This document shows, in pieces, positions 1,887-13,468 of a stretch of 64,000 nucleotides of DNA. Numbering within the stretch: the first letter of the stretch is position 1; each line of letters begins with the position of its first letter. The notes under the pieces were generated by a model. That model ran no database searches and had not been told where the DNA came from. It worked only from the letters and a program-made list of their open reading frames with translations. The DNA lies in NCBI GenBank assembly GCA_003569365.1, contig BGOS01000023.1, positions 186,001 to 250,000 on the forward strand. Direction: 5' to 3'. Position numbers and translations under genes: made by a program. The stretch is from Anaerolineaceae bacterium. GTDB lineage: Bacteria > Chloroflexota > Anaerolineae > Anaerolineales > UBA11657.

Positions 1887-4800
1887 CTAGTAGTACGGGT
1901 CGAAGTCTGTGGTGTATTCCGGAGCCGGGATCGGCCAGTCCGTTCCGCCAGCTATGCCCCAGGTGGTGACCGAAGCCACCGCATCGCTGGACTGCCTGAT
2001 GAACCACTGCGCTGTGCTCGGCCGGTACACTGCCAGGTCAGTTATGCCGTCGGCATCGTAGTCACCAACCAGCGGAATGTCCGTGCTGCCGGCAATGCCC
2101 CAGTTGTTCACCTGCACCGATGAAGTGGCACTCTTCAGCACAAACCATTGGGCAGTCGACGGCTTGTAGACGGTTAGGTCAGTCTTGCCATCGGAGTCAA
2201 AGTCTGCGGCCAGCGGGATGTCATGGGCTGTGCCACTGCCAACCGCGGAGCCCCAGGTGGTTACCTGTGCCAGGCCGTCAGTGGACTTGCGGATGAACCA
2301 CTGCGCTGAGCTCGGGCGGAACACCGTCAAGTCAGTGATGCCATCGCCGTCATAGTCGCCCGGCACCGGTACATCACCCGCATTTGCGAGACCCCAGGTC
2401 ACCACATCCGCAACCTTGCTGGTGCCGGACAGGTAGATATACCACTGTGCTGTGCTCGGCCGATAGACTGCGCGATCCGTGCGGCCATCGCCGTCATAGT
2501 CGCCTGGTACTGCCAGGTCTCCCGCTCCAGCGCGGCCCCAAACCATCACGGCTGCCGTCTGGTCCGCAGACTGGCGCACAAACCACTGCGCCGTGTCGGG
2601 CCGGTAGAGGGCGTGGTCCGCCTTGCCGTCTCCGTCATAGTCTCCGGTGACGGGCACCTCATGGGTTGAGCCCGAGCGGGCCTCACCCCAGGTGACGACA
2701 CTCGCCTCGGCAGTGCCGGAGTTGCGCACAAACCATTGGCCGGAGGTGGACCGGTACACTGCATGGTCCGCGCGGCCGTCGCCGTCAAAGTCCGCGCCTG
2801 CACTGGCGCCGTTCTGGTCCAGTACCCGGGCAATGACAGTATTGAGGCTGGTGGTGGTGCCACCGGTACCCGTTAGTTGGTAGTTCGTATCCGTGCTGTA
2901 GGCGCGGTGCGAGATGCTGAAGGTTTCTGCGCCTTCGATGAAGTTGTCGCGGAAGCCGGTCACCGTCACAGTCTGCGGCACGGCGTAGTTCACGGAGGTG
3001 AAGGTGAGCGTGGCGGGCGACAGACCCATATCCTGGCCGCTGACGGTCATGGACACATTCACGTCAGCGCTGGGCTGCGTTGTGAGCACAATCGTGTAAG
3101 TGTCACTGCCACCCTCTTTCATCTTGGTGGAACCGTTGGATTCCGTGATTGTGACGCGCGTGTCATTGTCGCTGATGCGGGCAATCGCGGTCGTCGTGGA
3201 CACACCGGTGGTGATACCGATGATCGAGATCGAGTCGTAGTTGCTGTCTGCAACGGTGTAGTTAGTGTTCCGGCTGGACACCACAAAAGTGACTGTGCCG
3301 GTGTGATTGCCTTCCAGCGCAGCGTCATCCACTGCCTTGATGGTCACTGTCTGCGGCGACGAGTAGTTGCTGGAGGTAAACAGCAGGCTGGCCGGCGAGA
3401 CTGTCAGCTGTGCATTGGTGCCCATAGTGATCGAGACCTGCGCGGTGGGCTGTGTCTTCAGCACCAGCGTAAAGGTGTCGCCAACCGTGTCGCCTTCCCT
3501 CACATCGATGTTGCTATCGGTATTAGTTAGCTGCACGGCAGCCTCATTGTCGACCACATTGACGCGGATCTTGTCCATCAGCAATCCGTTGTAGTTCAGG
3601 TCACTGCTTTGGACAGCAAAGGTAACGATCGCATTATGGTCGCCCTCGGCTGTGGTGTCGTTTATCGCGGCGAAATTGACCTGCTGTGGCACCGTGTAGT
3701 TTGAGGCATCAAAGAACAACGTCACGGTGTTTGTAACCACCAGGGTGTAGCCTGCGCTTATTTGCGCATCGGTGCCGGTGGCAAACTGCACCTGGCGGGT
3801 GGCCGATGTGTCTGTGATCGTGACTGAAACTTGCGAGAGCGGCTGGGTGTTGATGGACACCTGGATGCTGTCCAAGCCTGTGCTGCTGCCTTCAGTCACA
3901 ATTGTGCTGCCGGCGGACTCTTCGCGGCTGACCTTGCGCAGTGTGGCCTCATTTGTCACGGCCACATCCGCGGACATGGTGGCGAGGCACTGGTTGGTGA
4001 TGTTGGTTACGCTTACGCCACTGGCCCGGCCGCCGTACAGGTTGCTGTTTGGCGAAGAAGTGCTGTTGAACGTGCGGTTGGCGGAGCCGCCCGGGTAAAA
4101 ATCATTCGTGTCGCCGTCGTTCCCCGAGGTCCGGCTGTCCAGCTGCGACAGATTGTCGGCCTCGATGAGATCCACCAGCTTGTGCGCCTCATCATTCATC
4201 GCCACGGTGCCGGAACTGGCTACCGTCTCATCTACAGAGTAGATGAGCACACCGCAGCCCGGCAGGCCCGCGTCGTAGCCGACGCGCTGGCGGTTTTCCA
4301 TCAGGAAGTATTCGCCCCAGCCGTACTGTTTGCTGCCGTCACTGCGCGAGATGCTTACATCCCGGTTCCAGTCCAAGCCTTGCTGGTTTTCCCGCATTTG
4401 CACTATGCGCTTGCTTGTTTCCACTTGCGCCAGCTGCACAGTCTGGGTGCCGGAGATGCGTTCCGGCGTGACCCAGTTCATATACCATTTGAGGAACGCA
4501 GACGGATGCGCCGGCGAAGAGCCTCTGTAGTTGTTTACACTGCCGGCTACGCATGTGGCTGCGGATGTTGCAGTGCACATGCCTTCCGGTGTGTTGGGCA
4601 GCTTGCGGTTAAAGAAGCCGGTGCCCATCAGATCGAACGCGCCCAAGCCATAGCCCTGCACCGTGGCAGTGCTGTCTGTGTCAGTCATGGCCGGGTAGCC
4701 AATGTTATAGCCCATGAGTTTGGCAAAGATACCAATGGTGGCTTCATGCTCTGCCACAGAGGCGCTGCAGTGGCGCTCGCCGGCAATCATGTACCCCTTG

Positions 4801-5513
4801 GTGCCAACGCTGGTGCCGTCCACAGTCACTGCTGTGGTCAGGGCGGAGCGGTGGTTCCACACATACTTGCCGCAGGTGGTGCCGTACTCGCCTTCATAAC
4901 CGGCCACAACAACCACCAGCTCCAGTTCGTTGACGGTCAGGATGCCGTCGCCGTTCTGGTCATAGTCGTTGTAATTTACGTAGTCGTTGGAAGCAGTAAT
5001 CGCTTTTGATACGATAGACTCTGCCGCTGCGCCCCCGGCGCTCGCGCTGCTTTTGTTCAACAGAACTTCAGACATTGTCGAGGGATGCGTGCCGGAGATC
5101 GTCAGCCAGCCAACAACACCATCGTTCTCAGCCCCATAGCTCTCGTATCCGCCCATCAGGCGGAATGCGTTGTACGATACCTCTTTGAGGTAGTGGTCCA
5201 CACTGTCCGTGGGCCCAAAGAACTTTTGAACCCAATTGTTCACGGTAGAGCCGAGGCTCGCCTGATTGGAAAACTGCACGAGCAACACCAGCGTCCGGTG
5301 CACACCAGAGTGCCCGGGGTAGGAGATACCACTGATGCCGGGCAGGTTGGTCAGGCCCGGGTCCGGGATGCCTGGCGCGGCGAAAGCCGGCACGGCTGCG
5401 CCGAAGGCGGTGGTTAGCCCGAGTGCAAGTGTCAGTGCCGCCAAGAGGCGCAAGCCCCAGCGCGCAATCCGCCGGCTGGCGGCCGATAATTGATTTTTTG
5501 AATTATTGATCAT
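1887..5513 (-). CDS. Secreted M6-peptidase-like protein with Calx-beta-like and FG-GAP-like repeats; zinc motif degenerate
   Basis: This is a 1208-residue exported protein. The N-terminus has a basic stretch (RRIARWGLR), a hydrophobic core and an AFAAPG-type cleavage site near residue 46. Residues about 50-510 resemble M6 (immune inhibitor A-like) metalloproteases, including FDLMGTG near residue 291. Where HExxH is expected, the protein reads HEATI at 256-260, so the second zinc histidine is absent and activity is doubtful. Residues about 521-905 hold three Calx-beta-like beta-sandwich repeats (each with a xVxEG start, an F(D/T)xxNYxxPQ middle and a final DND/DNE). Residues about 905-1200 hold six FG-GAP-like blades with calcium-type DxDxDG loops and a YRPSTAQWF strand, probably a beta-propeller. 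It is the paralogue of the upstream 5630-8053 gene. The likely role is surface adhesion or a binding protein; the substrate is unknown. Confidence 0.8.
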   Translation of the reverse strand: MINNSKNQLSAASRRIARWGLRLLAALTLALGLTTAFGAAVPAFAAPGIPDPGLTNLPGISGISYPGHSGVHRTLVLLVQFSNQASLGSTVNNWVQKFFGPTDSVDHYLKEVSYNAFRLMGGYESYGAENDGVVGWLTISGTHPSTMSEVLLNKSSASAGGAAAESIVSKAITASNDYVNYNDYDQNGDGILTVNELELVVVVAGYEGEYGTTCGKYVWNHRSALTTAVTVDGTSVGTKGYMIAGERHCSASVAEHEATIGIFAKLMGYNIGYPAMTDTDSTATVQGYGLGAFDLMGTGFFNRKLPNTPEGMCTATSAATCVAGSVNNYRGSSPAHPSAFLKWYMNWVTPERISGTQTVQLAQVETSKRIVQMRENQQGLDWNRDVSISRSDGSKQYGWGEYFLMENRQRVGYDAGLPGCGVLIYSVDETVASSGTVAMNDEAHKLVDLIEADNLSQLDSRTSGNDGDTNDFYPGGSANRTFNSTSSPNSNLYGGRASGVSVTNITNQCLATMSADVAVTNEATLRKVSREESAGSTIVTEGSSTGLDSIQVSINTQPLSQVSVTITDTSATRQVQFATGTDAQISAGYTLVVTNTVTLFFDASNYTVPQQVNFAAINDTTAEGDHNAIVTFAVQSSDLNYNGLLMDKIRVNVVDNEAAVQLTNTDSNIDVREGDTVGDTFTLVLKTQPTAQVSITMGTNAQLTVSPASLLFTSSNYSSPQTVTIKAVDDAALEGNHTGTVTFVVSSRNTNYTVADSNYDSISIIGITTGVSTTTAIARISDNDTRVTITESNGSTKMKEGGSDTYTIVLTTQPSADVNVSMTVSGQDMGLSPATLTFTSVNYAVPQTVTVTGFRDNFIEGAETFSISHRAYSTDTNYQLTGTGGTTTSLNTVIARVLDQNGASAGADFDGDGRADHAVYRSTSGQWFVRNSGTAEASVVTWGEARSGSTHEVPVTGDYDGDGKADHALYRPDTAQWFVRQSADQTAAVMVWGRAGAGDLAVPGDYDGDGRTDRAVYRPSTAQWYIYLSGTSKVADVVTWGLANAGDVPVPGDYDGDGITDLTVFRPSSAQWFIRKSTDGLAQVTTWGSAVGSGTAHDIPLAADFDSDGKTDLTVYKPSTAQWFVLKSATSSVQVNNWGIAGSTDIPLVGDYDADGITDLAVYRPSTAQWFIRQSSDAVASVTTWGIAGGTDWPIPAPEYTTDFDPYY

Positions 5514-5629: not shown

Positions 5630-8053
5630 CTAATTGGCCACCACATTGCCGTCCGAGTCCGGTGCCGGCAGCGGGTAGTCGATGCTTCCGGCCGCAGCCC
5701 AGGTGATCACCAGTGCCTGCCGATAGTCGCCATCGGCATAGCCAGACAGCTTCACAAACCACTGCCCGGAAGAGATCCGGAAGACTGCCGGGTCGCTCTT
5801 GCCGTCGCGGTCCCAGTCAGCCGTCACTGGCACATCTGTAGTGCCTGCCGCACCCCACGTCACCACGCTGGACGTGCCGGTGTTCGACAGGTAAGCGAAC
5901 CATTGGGACGTTGACGGCCGGTACACTACGCGGTCCGCCCGCTTGTCGCCGTCCAAGTCCGCCACTATCGGTACGTCTGCGCCGCCGGCTTCGCCCCAGG
6001 TGATCACCGAGGTTGCCCCGTCACTAGAGCGCTTCACAATCCACTGCGCTGTTGAGCGGCGATAGATTGCAACATCTGCCATTGTGTCGCCGTCATAGTC
6101 GCCGGGCACCGGCACTTCGCCGGCTGTCAGCTGCACGCCCCAGGTCTCCACCTGTGCGGTGCCGGTGGATGACTTGCGGATGATCCATTGCGCCGTGGAG
6201 GGGCGGAAGATCGCCCGGTCCGTGGCGCCATCGCCGTCGTAGTCTGCGGGCACCGGCACATCCGCGCCGCCGGCGAGGCCCCAGGTGATGACACTGAAGT
6301 CGTTGTTCACTGAGCCCTTCACAAACCATTGGGCCGTGCTGGGCCGGTAGACGGCCGGGTCCGAGAAGCCATCGCCATCAAAGTCGCCATTGACCGGGAT
6401 ATCCGCGCCGCCGGCGAGGCCCCAGGTAGTCGACTCAACAACTATGTTGCTGGATTGGCGGTAGATCCATTGAGCGGTATTCGGCCGGTAGATTGCGATA
6501 TCTGCCCTGCCATCGCCGTCGAAGTCTGCACCGCCATTGTTGGCCGTGTCATTGTCCAGGATGGTCACCTTGACCGAGCCGATCCCGGTAAGATTGAAGT
6601 TGGCATCCGCAACCACAGTACTGTTGGTGGATGATGTGCTCCGGATGGTGTGGGTTATGGTTACGCTATGCGATCCTTCCAGGGTCACATCGTCAACCGC
6701 CCTCACAGTAACCACCTGTGGCACATTCCAGTTATTCGGCGTGAAGGTGAGGCTCATCGGGCTCACCAGCAGCTGTGCCTGCACAGTCGGAGCTGTGTAC
6801 GGGCTGATGGCCAGCGTGATGCTTACGTTATCTGTGGGCTGGCTGGCCAGCTGCAGGGTATAGCTGTCCCCGGAAGGCGCGCCTTCTTTTACGAAGGTCC
6901 GGCCGCCGCTCTGTTCAATCACCACTTTGCTGTCATTGTCCGTGACGTTGGCAGCTATGGAGCGGGCCGTCGTGCTGTTTGCCGTGCTGTAGGCGTTGTC
7001 CACAATATTTGTGACCACTGTGGACGTGGAAAAGTTAGTGATCGCCACGCCGCCAAACGAGCCATCCGTGTCATAGAACTTGTCGGCACTGTCTGCCGCA
7101 AAAGTAATCGATGCAGTGTGGGTGCCCTCGTTGGTGGAGTCGTCGCTCGCGGACACATACACCGTCTGCGGTGTGCTCCAGTTGGCGGAACTGAAGGAAA
7201 GCGATGTGATGCTCACGGGCGACAAGACTGCACTGGCACTGGTGCGCACATAGGCCTGGCTGTTCGCGAAAGCCGTGACAGTCACCGGGCCGGTGGGCTG
7301 CGTTGAAAGCCGCACGGTAATCGTGTCTCCCACGCCGTCGCTCTCGTTGAGATCCGTGGAGCGGCCACTTTGCTGAATTTCAATCCCGTTGTCGTTGTCA
7401 TCTATGCCGGCCGTAACACTGGCGGCTTCGATGCCCTGGTACTGGCTATCCAGCGTATACACATTGTGCGTGACGGTTGCGTAATGTTTGCCCTCGTAGA
7501 CCGCGTCGTTGACTGCCCGCAGGTTAACGGTTTGCGCCACGAACCAGTTGGACGATGTAAAGATCAAGTCAATCGATGTTGAAAACGTGGTGGTGTCTGT
7601 GCTTACCTGTATCTGCCCGGATACATCGCTCACTTGAATGGAGACGAGGCTGTTGGGCGCCCTTGAAAGCACAATCGCGTAGTTGTCAGACCCGTTGCCT
7701 TCCGCCAGCTGCGTAAAGCCGGCAGACTGCGACACGTATATGGTGCCGGTCACTGGCGCGGCTGCCAGCACTGCCGGGTGCCACGGGTACTCGTCGCCGC
7801 GCTGCGGCGCAGCGCTTGCGTCGCGCAGTGCCTGCGCTGTAGCGGGCGCTGCCTTGGCGGCGCCGGTCAGGCGGGTGGCGTATTCCGTCAGGAATCCAGC
7901 CGGTGCGGCCAGGGCCGCGGTCGTAGGGGCGTGCAACGCAAAGGGGCTGGCCGTAACCGGCGCAAGCAAAACTGCCAGCGCAAGTACGCCCAGGAATGCA
8001 TACTGCATTCCGTCTGCTAGTGCACGTGGGAGTATCGATGTCGATTTACTCAT
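5630..8053 (-). CDS. Secreted protein with Calx-beta-like domains and six FG-GAP-like repeats
   Basis: The product is 807 residues from the ATG at 8053, chosen because GGAGGAGT sits 7 nt upstream; a longer reading to 8080 lacks such a site. The N-terminus MSKSTSILPRALADG is followed by a hydrophobic segment and an export signal. Residues about 103-220, 221-373 and 374-507 are three Calx-beta-like domains ending in DND or similar. Residues about 508-800 are six blades with (A/G)DxDGDGxxDxAxYRPSTAQW, matching the 1208-aa neighbour almost word for word. It lacks the peptidase-like domain of that neighbour. It is probably a calcium-stabilised surface or extracellular beta-propeller protein; the ligand is unknown. 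It is likely cotranscribed with the two small upstream genes. Confidence 0.8.
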   Translation of the reverse strand: MSKSTSILPRALADGMQYAFLGVLALAVLLAPVTASPFALHAPTTAALAAPAGFLTEYATRLTGAAKAAPATAQALRDASAAPQRGDEYPWHPAVLAAAPVTGTIYVSQSAGFTQLAEGNGSDNYAIVLSRAPNSLVSIQVSDVSGQIQVSTDTTTFSTSIDLIFTSSNWFVAQTVNLRAVNDAVYEGKHYATVTHNVYTLDSQYQGIEAASVTAGIDDNDNGIEIQQSGRSTDLNESDGVGDTITVRLSTQPTGPVTVTAFANSQAYVRTSASAVLSPVSITSLSFSSANWSTPQTVYVSASDDSTNEGTHTASITFAADSADKFYDTDGSFGGVAITNFSTSTVVTNIVDNAYSTANSTTARSIAANVTDNDSKVVIEQSGGRTFVKEGAPSGDSYTLQLASQPTDNVSITLAISPYTAPTVQAQLLVSPMSLTFTPNNWNVPQVVTVRAVDDVTLEGSHSVTITHTIRSTSSTNSTVVADANFNLTGIGSVKVTILDNDTANNGGADFDGDGRADIAIYRPNTAQWIYRQSSNIVVESTTWGLAGGADIPVNGDFDGDGFSDPAVYRPSTAQWFVKGSVNNDFSVITWGLAGGADVPVPADYDGDGATDRAIFRPSTAQWIIRKSSTGTAQVETWGVQLTAGEVPVPGDYDGDTMADVAIYRRSTAQWIVKRSSDGATSVITWGEAGGADVPIVADLDGDKRADRVVYRPSTSQWFAYLSNTGTSSVVTWGAAGTTDVPVTADWDRDGKSDPAVFRISSGQWFVKLSGYADGDYRQALVITWAAAGSIDYPLPAPDSDGNVVAN

Positions 8054-8060
8054 AGTAACC

Positions 8061-8068
8061 ACTCCTCC
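8061..8068 (-). promoter_or_regulatory. Shine-Dalgarno that fixes the start of the 807-aa gene
   Basis: Reverse-strand GGAGGAGT lies 7 nt before the ATG at 8053. It is the strongest ribosome-binding site in this part of the window and rules out the longer reading that would begin at 8080. Confidence 0.75.
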
Positions 8069-8076
8069 GTGTGTTC

Positions 8077-8376
8077 TCAACGATTAATCTGGTTCCGGCA
8101 AGCACTCTTTGCAGTGCTGAGCCGGGGCTTAAAAACTTCATACATTCCGGCTGCGTCCCTCACGTTGCTGGAATGTCCGCTTGCTTGTAACGTGTAGCCG
8201 TTGCCCAAAGCTGGCTGCTGCAACGCTCCGTTGCGGCCGCCACCCGGGGCTGGCGTCGGGAGTTCTCCCGGCGGGCCACTACTGCCATACTCAAACCGCA
8301 TGCCGCCGTCGGCGTGCTGTCCCATCAGTGCACTTGCTCCCATCGTGCGCAAGCGCAAGGAATCACGAATTGCCAT
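8077..8376 (-). CDS. Small glycine/proline-rich protein of unknown function (tentative)
   Basis: This 99-residue reading lies between the 80-aa gene and the 807-aa surface protein, in the same direction, with gaps of only 17 and 23 nt. An AAGGA overlapping the previous stop is 13-14 nt upstream of the ATG, a loose spacing. The composition is rich in Gly, Pro and Ala in the middle (GPPGELPTPAPGGGRNG), with no transmembrane segment and no family I recognise. Its tight position in an apparent operon is the main reason to keep it; it could also be non-coding leader DNA. Confidence 0.4.
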   Translation of the reverse strand: MAIRDSLRLRTMGASALMGQHADGGMRFEYGSSGPPGELPTPAPGGGRNGALQQPALGNGYTLQASGHSSNVRDAAGMYEVFKPRLSTAKSACRNQINR

Positions 8377-10106: not shown

Positions 10107-10904
10107 ATGTTTCCCAACCACTATGCGGTCTCCCTGCCGGTGTTCTCCGGCCCAATGGACCTGCTGCTTCATCTCATTGAGCGCGAGGAACTGGACATAA
10201 CGCGCGTGGCGCTGGCGCAAGTGACCGACCAGTACCTGGCTTATGTGCGCCAGCTGGAGCAGCGCCAGATTGCGGACCTGGCGGAGTTTTTGATTATTGC
10301 GGCGCGGCTGCTGCTCATCAAGAGTGAAGCACTGCTGCCGCGCCCGCCTGTCCGGCAGCCGGAGGAGCTGGACCCCGCCGAGGAACTTGCGCGGCAGCTG
10401 CGCGAGTACAAGCGCTTCAAGGATGCGAGCGGATTTTTGCTGCAATGCCAGCAGGCCGGGCGCCAGACTTTTGTGCGCATGGCCAAACCGCCAAAGGTGG
10501 AGCCGCGCCTGGACTTGTCCAAGCTTAGCCCCGCCGACTTGCTGCGCGCAATGTTACGCGTGCTCACCCAGCCGCGCACGGATCAGCAGCCGGTAACCAG
10601 CGTGCTGCCGCGTCCGCGCTTCTTGGTAAGGGACAAAATTGCCCACATTGCCCGCATTTTAGGCAATTCGCTCAGCACCAAGTTTTTCAATTTGCTGCGT
10701 GTCGGCCAGCCGCGGGCGGAAGTTGTGGCTACCTTTCTGGCAGTGCTGGAGCTGGTGCGCCGCCACATGGTGCATGCCACGCAGCCTGAACCATTCGGCG
10801 ATATTGATATTGAGCGCGCGCCTGCGTGGCAAATGGATAAAGTGTCCGGGCTTGAGTCTGAATTGGATGAAGGCGGCCCGCCGACGCTGCAGCCCGCGGG
10901 TTAA
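10107..10904 (+). CDS. scpA: Segregation and condensation protein A
   Basis: This 265-residue kleisin subunit of the bacterial SMC complex bridges SMC heads, together with ScpB, to condense and segregate chromosomes. The N-terminus (VSLPVFSGPMDLLLHLIEREELDITRVALAQVTDQYL) is the conserved ScpA SMC-neck-binding helix bundle. A C-terminal winged-helix segment lies around residues 190-245. A TATGAT hexamer lies 13 nt before the ATG, with almost no room for a ribosome-binding site. It precedes selD by 16 nt. Its partner scpB is in this window but far away (56625-57254) rather than adjacent as in many genomes. Confidence 0.93.
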   Translation: MFPNHYAVSLPVFSGPMDLLLHLIEREELDITRVALAQVTDQYLAYVRQLEQRQIADLAEFLIIAARLLLIKSEALLPRPPVRQPEELDPAEELARQLREYKRFKDASGFLLQCQQAGRQTFVRMAKPPKVEPRLDLSKLSPADLLRAMLRVLTQPRTDQQPVTSVLPRPRFLVRDKIAHIARILGNSLSTKFFNLLRVGQPRAEVVATFLAVLELVRRHMVHATQPEPFGDIDIERAPAWQMDKVSGLESELDEGGPPTLQPAG

Positions 10905-10920
10905 TTTGGAGACCAACTGA

Positions 10921-12009
10921 ATGCCCGGCGCCAGCCCTGACGCGCAGCTCAACGGCGGCAAGCGCATCCGCCTTACTACGCTGGCCACATGCGCGGGCTG
11001 AGCATCTAAATTGGATCCCCGCGTGCTCGGGGATGTAGTTGGTTCGCTCGCAAATATTTTTGGCGCTGCGGACTTTCCGCAGTTGCTGGCTGGCATCGCG
11101 CAGCCAGACGATGCCGCGGTTTACCAGTTAGATGAAGAACGCGCGGTGATAGCCACTGCGGATTTCTTTCCGCCCGTAGTGGACGACGCGTTCGACTTTG
11201 GCGCGGTGGCTGCTGCCAATGCGCTCTCGGATATTTATGCGATGGGCGGGGATCCGCTATTTGCGCTGAACCTGCTGTGCTGGCCGGGCGATCAACCCGG
11301 CGAGTTGCTGGCGGAGATCCTGCGCGGCGGCGCTGAGAAGGTACGCGAAGCCGGCGCGGTGCTTGCAGGCGGCCACTCGGTTGCGGACCAGGAGCCCAAG
11401 TTTGGCCTGGTGGTGATCGGCCTCGCGCACCCCAAAAAAATATGGACCAAGGGCGGGGCGCAGCCCGGCGATGAACTGGTGCTCACAAAGCCGCTGGGCA
11501 GCGGCACCATCACCACTGCACTCAAGGAAGGTGCAGCGAGCGCAGCGCATGTAGCCGCATGTGTGGCTGTGATGGCACAACTGAACCGCAAGGCAATGCT
11601 GGCGGGGCGAAGCCTGGCAGGCGCGCTGCATGCGGCAACGGACATTACCGGCTTTGGTTTGATTGGGCACGCACACGAGATGGCTGCCCAATCTAGTACC
11701 AGCTTCAACCTGCGGTGGGCGGCGCTGCCGTGGTTGGATGGCGCACAGGAGTATGCGCGCGCCCATATTTTCCCCGGCGGCACGACGCGCAATATTGATT
11801 TTTACAGCCAGTGGCTGGATGGCGGCGATGGCATTGCGCCGTGGCAGCAGCAATTGCTGTTTGACCCACAGACATCGGGCGGCCTCTTAATGGCAGTGGC
11901 GCCCGCAGCGCTGGCCGGCCTGCTGCACGAACTGGAGGCCAGCGGGCAGTTCCATGCGCATATTGGAAGCGTGTCTGCTGCTGGCGCTGGACGCATCCGT
12001 CTCATCTAA
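10921..12009 (+). CDS. selD: Selenophosphate synthetase SelD containing selenocysteine (in-frame TGA)
   Basis: SelD makes selenophosphate from selenide and ATP for selenocysteine and selenouridine synthesis. Reading from the ATG at 10921 (GGAG 8 nt upstream) gives 362 residues with one in-frame TGA at codon 27 (10999-11001). The context is RIRLTTLATCAG-U-ASKLDPRVL, exactly where the family has its catalytic Cys or Sec, followed by the conserved Lys three residues on. An ORF that stops at TGA would start only at the TTG at 11011 and lose the active site. Downstream, TTDFF-like ATADFFPPVVDDAFDFG and AGGHS motifs are intact. A SECIS-type hairpin follows the TGA. SelA, SelB and tRNA-Sec are not in the window but are predicted in this genome. 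Confidence 0.93.
11015..11034 (+). promoter_or_regulatory. Bacterial SECIS hairpin inside selD
   Basis: Thirteen nt after the UGA, ATCCCCG and CGGGGAT form a perfect 7-bp stem with a 6-nt loop CGTGCT. The loop has a G at 11023, 22 nt after the UGA. This fits the general bacterial SECIS plan (short apical stem with a G at the start of the loop, about 16-37 nt past UGA) that recruits SelB. The hairpin lies within coding sequence (LDPRVLG), as is usual in bacteria. Confidence 0.8.
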
Positions 12010-12094: not shown

Positions 12095-13468
12095 TTACTC
12101 GGTACTGATTGAGCCGTCTGGCATCGTCGCGTCAATCAGCGACTCGACGCCGACGAATGTTTTCGCGTCCACTTTTGCACCTTCCAGATTTGCGCCGGTC
12201 AGGTTTGCGCGCGTCAGGACAGCACCGCGCAGGTCCGCTTCGCGCAAGTCTGCACCGCGCAGGTTGGCGCCGGTGAGCTGCGCTTTGGCAAGGATCGTGC
12301 GGCGCAAATCCACACCGAAAAGCTGGGCACTGCGCAGCTCAGCTTTGCTGAAGTTTGCGCCAGCCAAATTGGCTTGATTCAAATTGGCACTGTTTAGGAG
12401 TGCGCCCACCGCGCTGGCGCCTTGCATGCGGGCGCTGCGCAGGTCGGCATATTGCATGTTCGCGCCGTCCAGTACAGTATTGCCGCTTGCATCTACTTTC
12501 TTGGTGCCCACCATATCGGACCAGGAAAGATTGGCACGCAGCAAAATCGCACCAGTTAGGTTTGCGCCACTCAGGATCGCCCAGCTGAGGTCTGCTTCCG
12601 TGAGATTAGCCTTGGTGAGGTTCGCACCGGTCAAGTTCGCCCACGGCAGGTGGGCTTCCACCAGGCGCGCACCAGCGAAGTTTGCACCTGCTATGTCTGC
12701 GTCCCCAAGGTCTGCCATCTGAAAGTCAGCTTTGGTAAAGTTGGCTTCATTTGCCTTGATTTCGACCAGCGAAGCCCGGTTAAAATCGGCGCCTGCGAAG
12801 TTGGCCCGCGGCGCATCAGAAAAGTCTAAAACTGCTGAGGACAGATCCGCGCCCGAAAAATCTGTATCGCTTAGCTGGGCGTGGCTGAGGTTGGCGCGGC
12901 TCAAATCAGTTTTGCGCAGTTTGGCACCCGTAAAATTCACATGGCTGCAATCCGAGCTGCTCATGCGCGCGGCATCCAAATTGGATTTGGTCAGGTCGGA
13001 ATGGCTCAAATCAGTGCCGGTCAAATCGCTTTTGGTGAGCAGTGCCTTGGATAGATGCATGCCGGTGAGGCTGGACTTGCTCATGCTTGCCTCGGTCAAG
13101 TCCGCGCCCTTAAGTTGCGCGCCCGCCAGATCTGACTCGGAGAAGACGGCGCGTTTCAGGCGTGCCTCCACCATATTTGCCATGCGCAAATTGCAGCGGT
13201 AAGCGTTGACGTATTCCATGTTGACTTTTCCAAGGTTTGCCTGGAAAAGATTTACGCCACCCAGCTTGGCCTGTGTCAGGTTTGCGCCAGCCAGATTTAC
13301 GTTCGACAAATTACAGCTGCGCAGGTTAACACCGCGCAATGCCTGCCCGGGCTCAAAGCGAAAGCGGTTTGTGCGCTGGCCGGCGGGGTCCCGGACTGGG
13401 CCGCCCGGCAGCACAATAACAAGGCCGCTTTCCGGCTGCAGTGTTGAGGGCAGAGATGTAGTTGACAT
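12095..13468 (-). CDS. Long pentapeptide-repeat protein
   Basis: The product is 457 residues, of which about 50-440 are nearly unbroken A(N/D)LXX pentapeptides (GANLTQAKLGGVNLFQANLGKVN and so on). These fold as a right-handed quadrilateral beta-helix. The first 50 residues are a non-repeat cap, and the last 20 (VGVESLIDATMPDGSISTE) form a C-terminal cap. No signal peptide or membrane segment is seen, so it is probably cytoplasmic. Short pentapeptide proteins of the Qnr/MfpA type mimic DNA and protect gyrase, but this one is more than twice as long and lacks a known partner gene, so its function is open. It is monocistronic with a good terminator. Confidence 0.85.
   Translation of the reverse strand: MSTTSLPSTLQPESGLVIVLPGGPVRDPAGQRTNRFRFEPGQALRGVNLRSCNLSNVNLAGANLTQAKLGGVNLFQANLGKVNMEYVNAYRCNLRMANMVEARLKRAVFSESDLAGAQLKGADLTEASMSKSSLTGMHLSKALLTKSDLTGTDLSHSDLTKSNLDAARMSSSDCSHVNFTGAKLRKTDLSRANLSHAQLSDTDFSGADLSSAVLDFSDAPRANFAGADFNRASLVEIKANEANFTKADFQMADLGDADIAGANFAGARLVEAHLPWANLTGANLTKANLTEADLSWAILSGANLTGAILLRANLSWSDMVGTKKVDASGNTVLDGANMQYADLRSARMQGASAVGALLNSANLNQANLAGANFSKAELRSAQLFGVDLRRTILAKAQLTGANLRGADLREADLRGAVLTRANLTGANLEGAKVDAKTFVGVESLIDATMPDGSISTE

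Follow-up and report, generated by a model that had tools for sequence, protein, structure and literature searches.

The window, that is, the whole stretch of 64,000 nucleotides analysed here (G000:C23:186001-250000), belongs to the metagenome-assembled genome (MAG) of a freshwater Chloroflexota bacterium, assembled as 2.63 Mb in 30 contigs and rated 95.5% complete (G000). By SelD, the nearest named relatives of this genome are Chloroflexi and Anaerolineales MAGs, including ZSMay80m-chloro-G1 (88% identity), an isolate name also used in a freshwater-plankton paper (PMC6169038). The window harbours a selD gene, predicted to encode selenide water dikinase, which starts 16 nt after the end of scpA (Table 1). 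The two genes, possibly co-transcribed, are also adjacent in both congeners (G001 and G002); scpA was not found beside selD in the available stretches of 27 more distant relatives.

The original prediction placed an in-frame TGA within selD, and the frame was confirmed from ATG 10921 through the TGA at 10999-11001 to the end of the SelD body at 12009, this TGA being the sole in-frame stop. The good ribosome-binding site that it described is probably the GGAG ahead of the ATG. As it also anticipated, standard gene calling truncates selD with loss of the active site: the longest open reading frame under translation table 11 starts at TTG 11011, directly after K30, and contains neither U27 nor K30. 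The corrected gene model recovers the first 30 residues that a standard caller would lose, including the predicted catalytic Sec and Lys.

Table 1. Features of the selD region, with coordinates counted from the first nucleotide of the window.
Feature	Position	Strand	Details
scpA (segregation and condensation protein A)	10107..10904	+	Pfam PF02616
Putative selD ribosome-binding site GGAG	10908..10911	+	9 nt 5′ of ATG 10921; read in the sequence
selD, selenide water dikinase (predicted)	10921..12009	+	362 residues with UGA as Sec; TAA stop 12007-12009
Cys24 codon TGC, CxxU motif (C24-A-G-U27)	10990..10992	+	From translation; Cys in 29/29 SelDs examined in the order
Predicted Sec27, in-frame TGA	10999..11001	+	Aligned to E. 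coli SelD Cys17; single TGA in selD of relatives
Predicted bacterial SECIS hairpin	11015..11034	+	7-bp stem 11015-11021 (ATCCCCG)/11028-11034 (CGGGGAT); loop CGTGCT 11022-11027

Reading through the TGA gives a full SelD N-terminus, as originally proposed, and the resulting protein scores 370.2 bits against TIGR00476 across the UGA, above the family cut-off of 125. The product carries the Pfam domains AIRS and AIRS_C, and it matches residues 15-331 of E. coli SelD (PDB 3u0o) with E = 1.5e-69. In the alignment to the E. coli protein (SIRLTQYSHGAGCGCK), U27 lies on Cys17 and K30 on Lys20. Both of these residues are essential in the E. coli enzyme. Similar to the Cys-containing SelDs of E. coli and Pseudomonas in fold, length and flanking motif, the protein differs from them at the active site, where they possess Cys in place of Sec. 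In the E. coli and Pseudomonas proteins, the second Cys follows the active-site residue by two positions (CGCK), whereas in the protein of the window it precedes the active site by three residues.

Among 60 genomes of relatives, 45 possess selD, and in 44 of these 45 at least one copy contains exactly one internal TGA. The only selD copy of G047 has no stop, while G035 and G059 harbour a TGA copy together with a second, stop-free copy in a longer frame. These second copies (G035:C1:144601-145623 and G059:C14:165032-166051) lie in open frames of about 745 residues, and are perhaps of the NADH dehydrogenase-SelD fusion type. Of 80 selD loci from named GTDB genomes, 74 had a readable codon at this place, which was Cys in 51 and UGA in 23 and nothing else; the six loci that were not read are motif failures and show no other residue. 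The alignment check suggested with the original prediction, for Sec or Cys at codon 27, therefore came out as expected, both at E. coli Cys17 and in the named loci.

The single internal TGA is also seen in the independent assemblies of the two congeners, at 88% and 93% identity. Within the 26 codons 5′ of the TGA, the congeners show five synonymous and four non-synonymous codon differences, and the N-terminal RLTTLATCAG is unchanged. A sequencing or assembly error in a Cys codon (TGC or TGT) could be imagined, since the assembly is not free of errors, as seen in a one-base frameshift in selA described below; nevertheless, this TGA recurs in both congeners, which were assembled independently, and in 44 of the 45 selD-bearing genomes of relatives, which makes such an error extremely improbable and in practice refutes it. 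A genome-wide reassignment of UGA to a standard amino acid, e.g. Trp as in table 4, has nothing in its favour besides the one in-frame TGA. The tRNA-Trp has the anticodon CCA, for which code 4 was rejected; moreover, homologues align Cys and not Trp at the residue, and the SelB, SelA and Fdh frames have no internal TGA, so that reassignment is practically inconceivable. Reading of the UGA as Sec is settled by the conservation of the TGA in relatives. From its sequence, selD almost certainly encodes a selenophosphate synthetase with selenocysteine as the predicted catalytic residue, and the original description of the gene as encoding a selenoprotein is borne out by the position of the UGA on E. 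coli Cys17, its recurrence in relatives, and a downstream hairpin that agrees with the SECIS model.

Sec has been reported in 19% of prokaryotic SelDs, always in the same position (PMC4561486). This position, together with the conservation of UGA in relatives and the presence of only Cys or UGA in the named loci, identifies the protein as a standard Sec-SelD. Similar to the Sec-SelDs (TIGR00476) of Clostridia and other Chloroflexota, it possesses the catalytic UGA in the same position, the U-x-x-K motif, and a SECIS just downstream. Sec-SelD is already well known, and the form found here is ordinary, being common to nearly all relatives with selD; the present knowledge of selenium use is unchanged by it. 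What the comparison adds is a Chloroflexota order, including lake plankton, in which SelD is a Sec-SelD almost without exception wherever selD is present. A difference is that this clade has an invariant Cys three residues before Sec (CxxU), found in every one of the 29 SelDs examined from the order. The CxxU motif is an uncommon but described form of SelD; according to PMC2398784, about 5.6% of the single-domain Sec-SelDs in ocean metagenomes have it.

The perfect 7-bp hairpin described in the original prediction was found in the sequence, beginning 13 nt past the TGA, without mismatch, and with a 6-nt loop located at +20 that has G as its second base. The bacterial SECIS model (bSECISearch, PMC13188914) allows a loop of 3-9 nt and a stem of 4-16 bp, requires G among the first two bases of the loop, places the loop 16-37 nt past the UGA, and limits the energy to at most -7.5 kcal/mol. 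With a 6-nt loop, a 7-bp stem, G as the second loop base, 20 nt between UGA and loop, and -16.1 kcal/mol over 45 nt, the selD hairpin agrees with all of these constraints. The energy of the 45-nt fold was equalled or beaten in 13% of recodings, and the energy alone is therefore unexceptional. Among codon-usage-weighted synonymous recodings of this stretch, 0.5% had a perfect 7-bp stem similarly spaced from the TGA, and across the window such a stem starts 8-20 nt downstream of 1.5-1.8% of TGAs. A scan of the window for in-frame TGAs with a hairpin gave 141 loose candidates, among which selD ranked only 14th by hairpin, which indicates that hairpins alone do not pick out selenoproteins in the window. 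The selD hairpin by itself is thus modest evidence for the Sec reading.

Both congeners possess a 6-bp version of the selD hairpin with an identical loop. The loop is 6 nt long in the genus of the window, in contrast to 3-5 nt in the SECIS elements of relatives. Across the order, it is located mainly at one of two positions, +20/21 (the family of the window and most of families f4 and f10) or +32/33 (most other families). At both positions, G occurs within the first two bases of the loop, and the UGA and the protein frame stay fixed. In G012 and G025, a simple search detected no clear hairpin in the 60 nt past the SelD TGA. We take the two positions as the replacement of one hairpin by another located four codons (about 12 nt) downstream. 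A SECIS moving in this way beside a fixed UGA would be a small, usable example of an evolutionary hairpin shift.

The original prediction that the genome encodes SelA, SelB and tRNA-Sec was verified only in part. An intact selB (310.6 bits, cut-off 242.25) is located at G000:C23:79356-81248, on the same contig as the window and 110 kb away from it. The selA gene is also present, with its larger piece above the cut-off, and is split by a one-base frameshift near G000:C11:46650, where G000 is one base short compared to the congener G002. Uninterrupted selA genes were found in G002 and in seven other members of the family. Past the frameshift, selA still aligns with high identity and mostly third-position differences. 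The frameshift may be genuine or may stem from an error in the assembly. In the congener G001, selA is cut by a contig end at roughly this point.

The third component, tRNA-Sec, was not found in G000 with Infernal and the Rfam model, which had tRNA-Ser, tRNA-Met and tRNA-Leu as best matches, or with a model built from the tRNA-Sec of 20 relatives. The 15-base anticodon-arm pattern invariant among these 20, searched in G000 with one mismatch allowed, matched only tRNA-Trp. Nothing was detected at any of the 60 contig ends of G000 (4 kb each) or in tRNA-bearing stretches, and the Rfam scan of the window revealed only two tRNA-Met genes. A tRNA-Sec was also not found in the congeners G001 and G002, or in G003, G006 and G008, all of which are incomplete. 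On the other hand, tRNA-Sec with a TCA anticodon was found in most of the order. Within the family, G004, G007 and G009 possess it, and G005 has a copy cut by a contig end. The tRNA-Sec of G009 adjoins a tRNA-Phe-Gly-Cys cluster.

In G005 and G009, the tRNA-Sec is located about 100 nt upstream of a gene for a membrane metalloprotease. This protease gene is absent from G000, G001, G002, G003 and G008, and partial in G006. Because the neighbouring protease is missing along with the tRNA-Sec, a shared assembly gap is likely and the simplest account of both, and the tRNA-Sec gene would then be located in the unassembled part of the genome. Loss or relocation of tRNA-Sec in genus g1 is possible. 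Absence of SelA, SelB and tRNA-Sec from the complete genome had been named at the outset as grounds against the selenoprotein; these grounds do not apply here, since the assembly of 30 contigs is incomplete and two of the three components are present.

A recent loss of Sec decoding in this strain, with selA broken, tRNA-Sec gone, the UGA acting as a plain stop and selD decaying, would agree with the selA frameshift and with a tRNA-Sec not found in an assembly rated as largely complete. However, selB and selD are otherwise intact, and codon differences in selD 3′ of the UGA between G000 and G001 are mostly synonymous (73, compared to 21 non-synonymous). The preserved part of selA past the frameshift also argues against decay, and the additional lack of the protease gene found next to tRNA-Sec in G005 and G009 suggests a gap and not a lone loss. 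Such a loss is therefore very unlikely, and we infer that the UGA of selD is decoded as Sec.

In the proposed mechanism, SelB carrying Sec-tRNA would bind the hairpin at 11015-11034, and the UGA at 10999-11001 would then be read as Sec by the ribosome. The predicted activity of SelD is the synthesis of selenophosphate from selenide and ATP, and SelA would use this product to convert Ser-tRNA-Sec to Sec-tRNA-Sec. In this way, SelD would feed the pathway required for its own synthesis. Regarding other uses of selenium, the selenouridine synthase YbbB was not found in ten genomes of the family, in a search where only the control, E. coli, was above the cut-off. In the best formate dehydrogenase alpha subunit, the frame is free of internal stops, UGA included. 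For organisms whose FdhA is not a selenoprotein, SelD has been proposed to sustain Sec decoding, mostly alongside selenouridine, and the published cases of SelD as the single selenoprotein are species that also possess YbbB (PMC1794560). The lack of detected YbbB in the ten family genomes, together with the formate dehydrogenase without UGA, leads us to entertain, as a rather doubtful idea, that SelD is the only selenoprotein of a lineage without selenouridine synthase and that its Sec apparatus is a self-serving loop. If true, the entire apparatus would be kept only for the enzyme that supplies it.

Other genes in the window include one at 12095-13468 on the reverse strand, facing selD, which encodes a protein of 457 aa composed almost entirely of pentapeptide repeats (ANLxx). 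Two neighbouring genes on the reverse strand (1887-5513 and 5630-8080) encode long, secreted-looking proteins of 1208 and 816 aa. Both proteins end in similar repeats (DGDGRADxAVYRPSTAQWF), and by eye they are probably paralogues of the FG-GAP/VCBS type.
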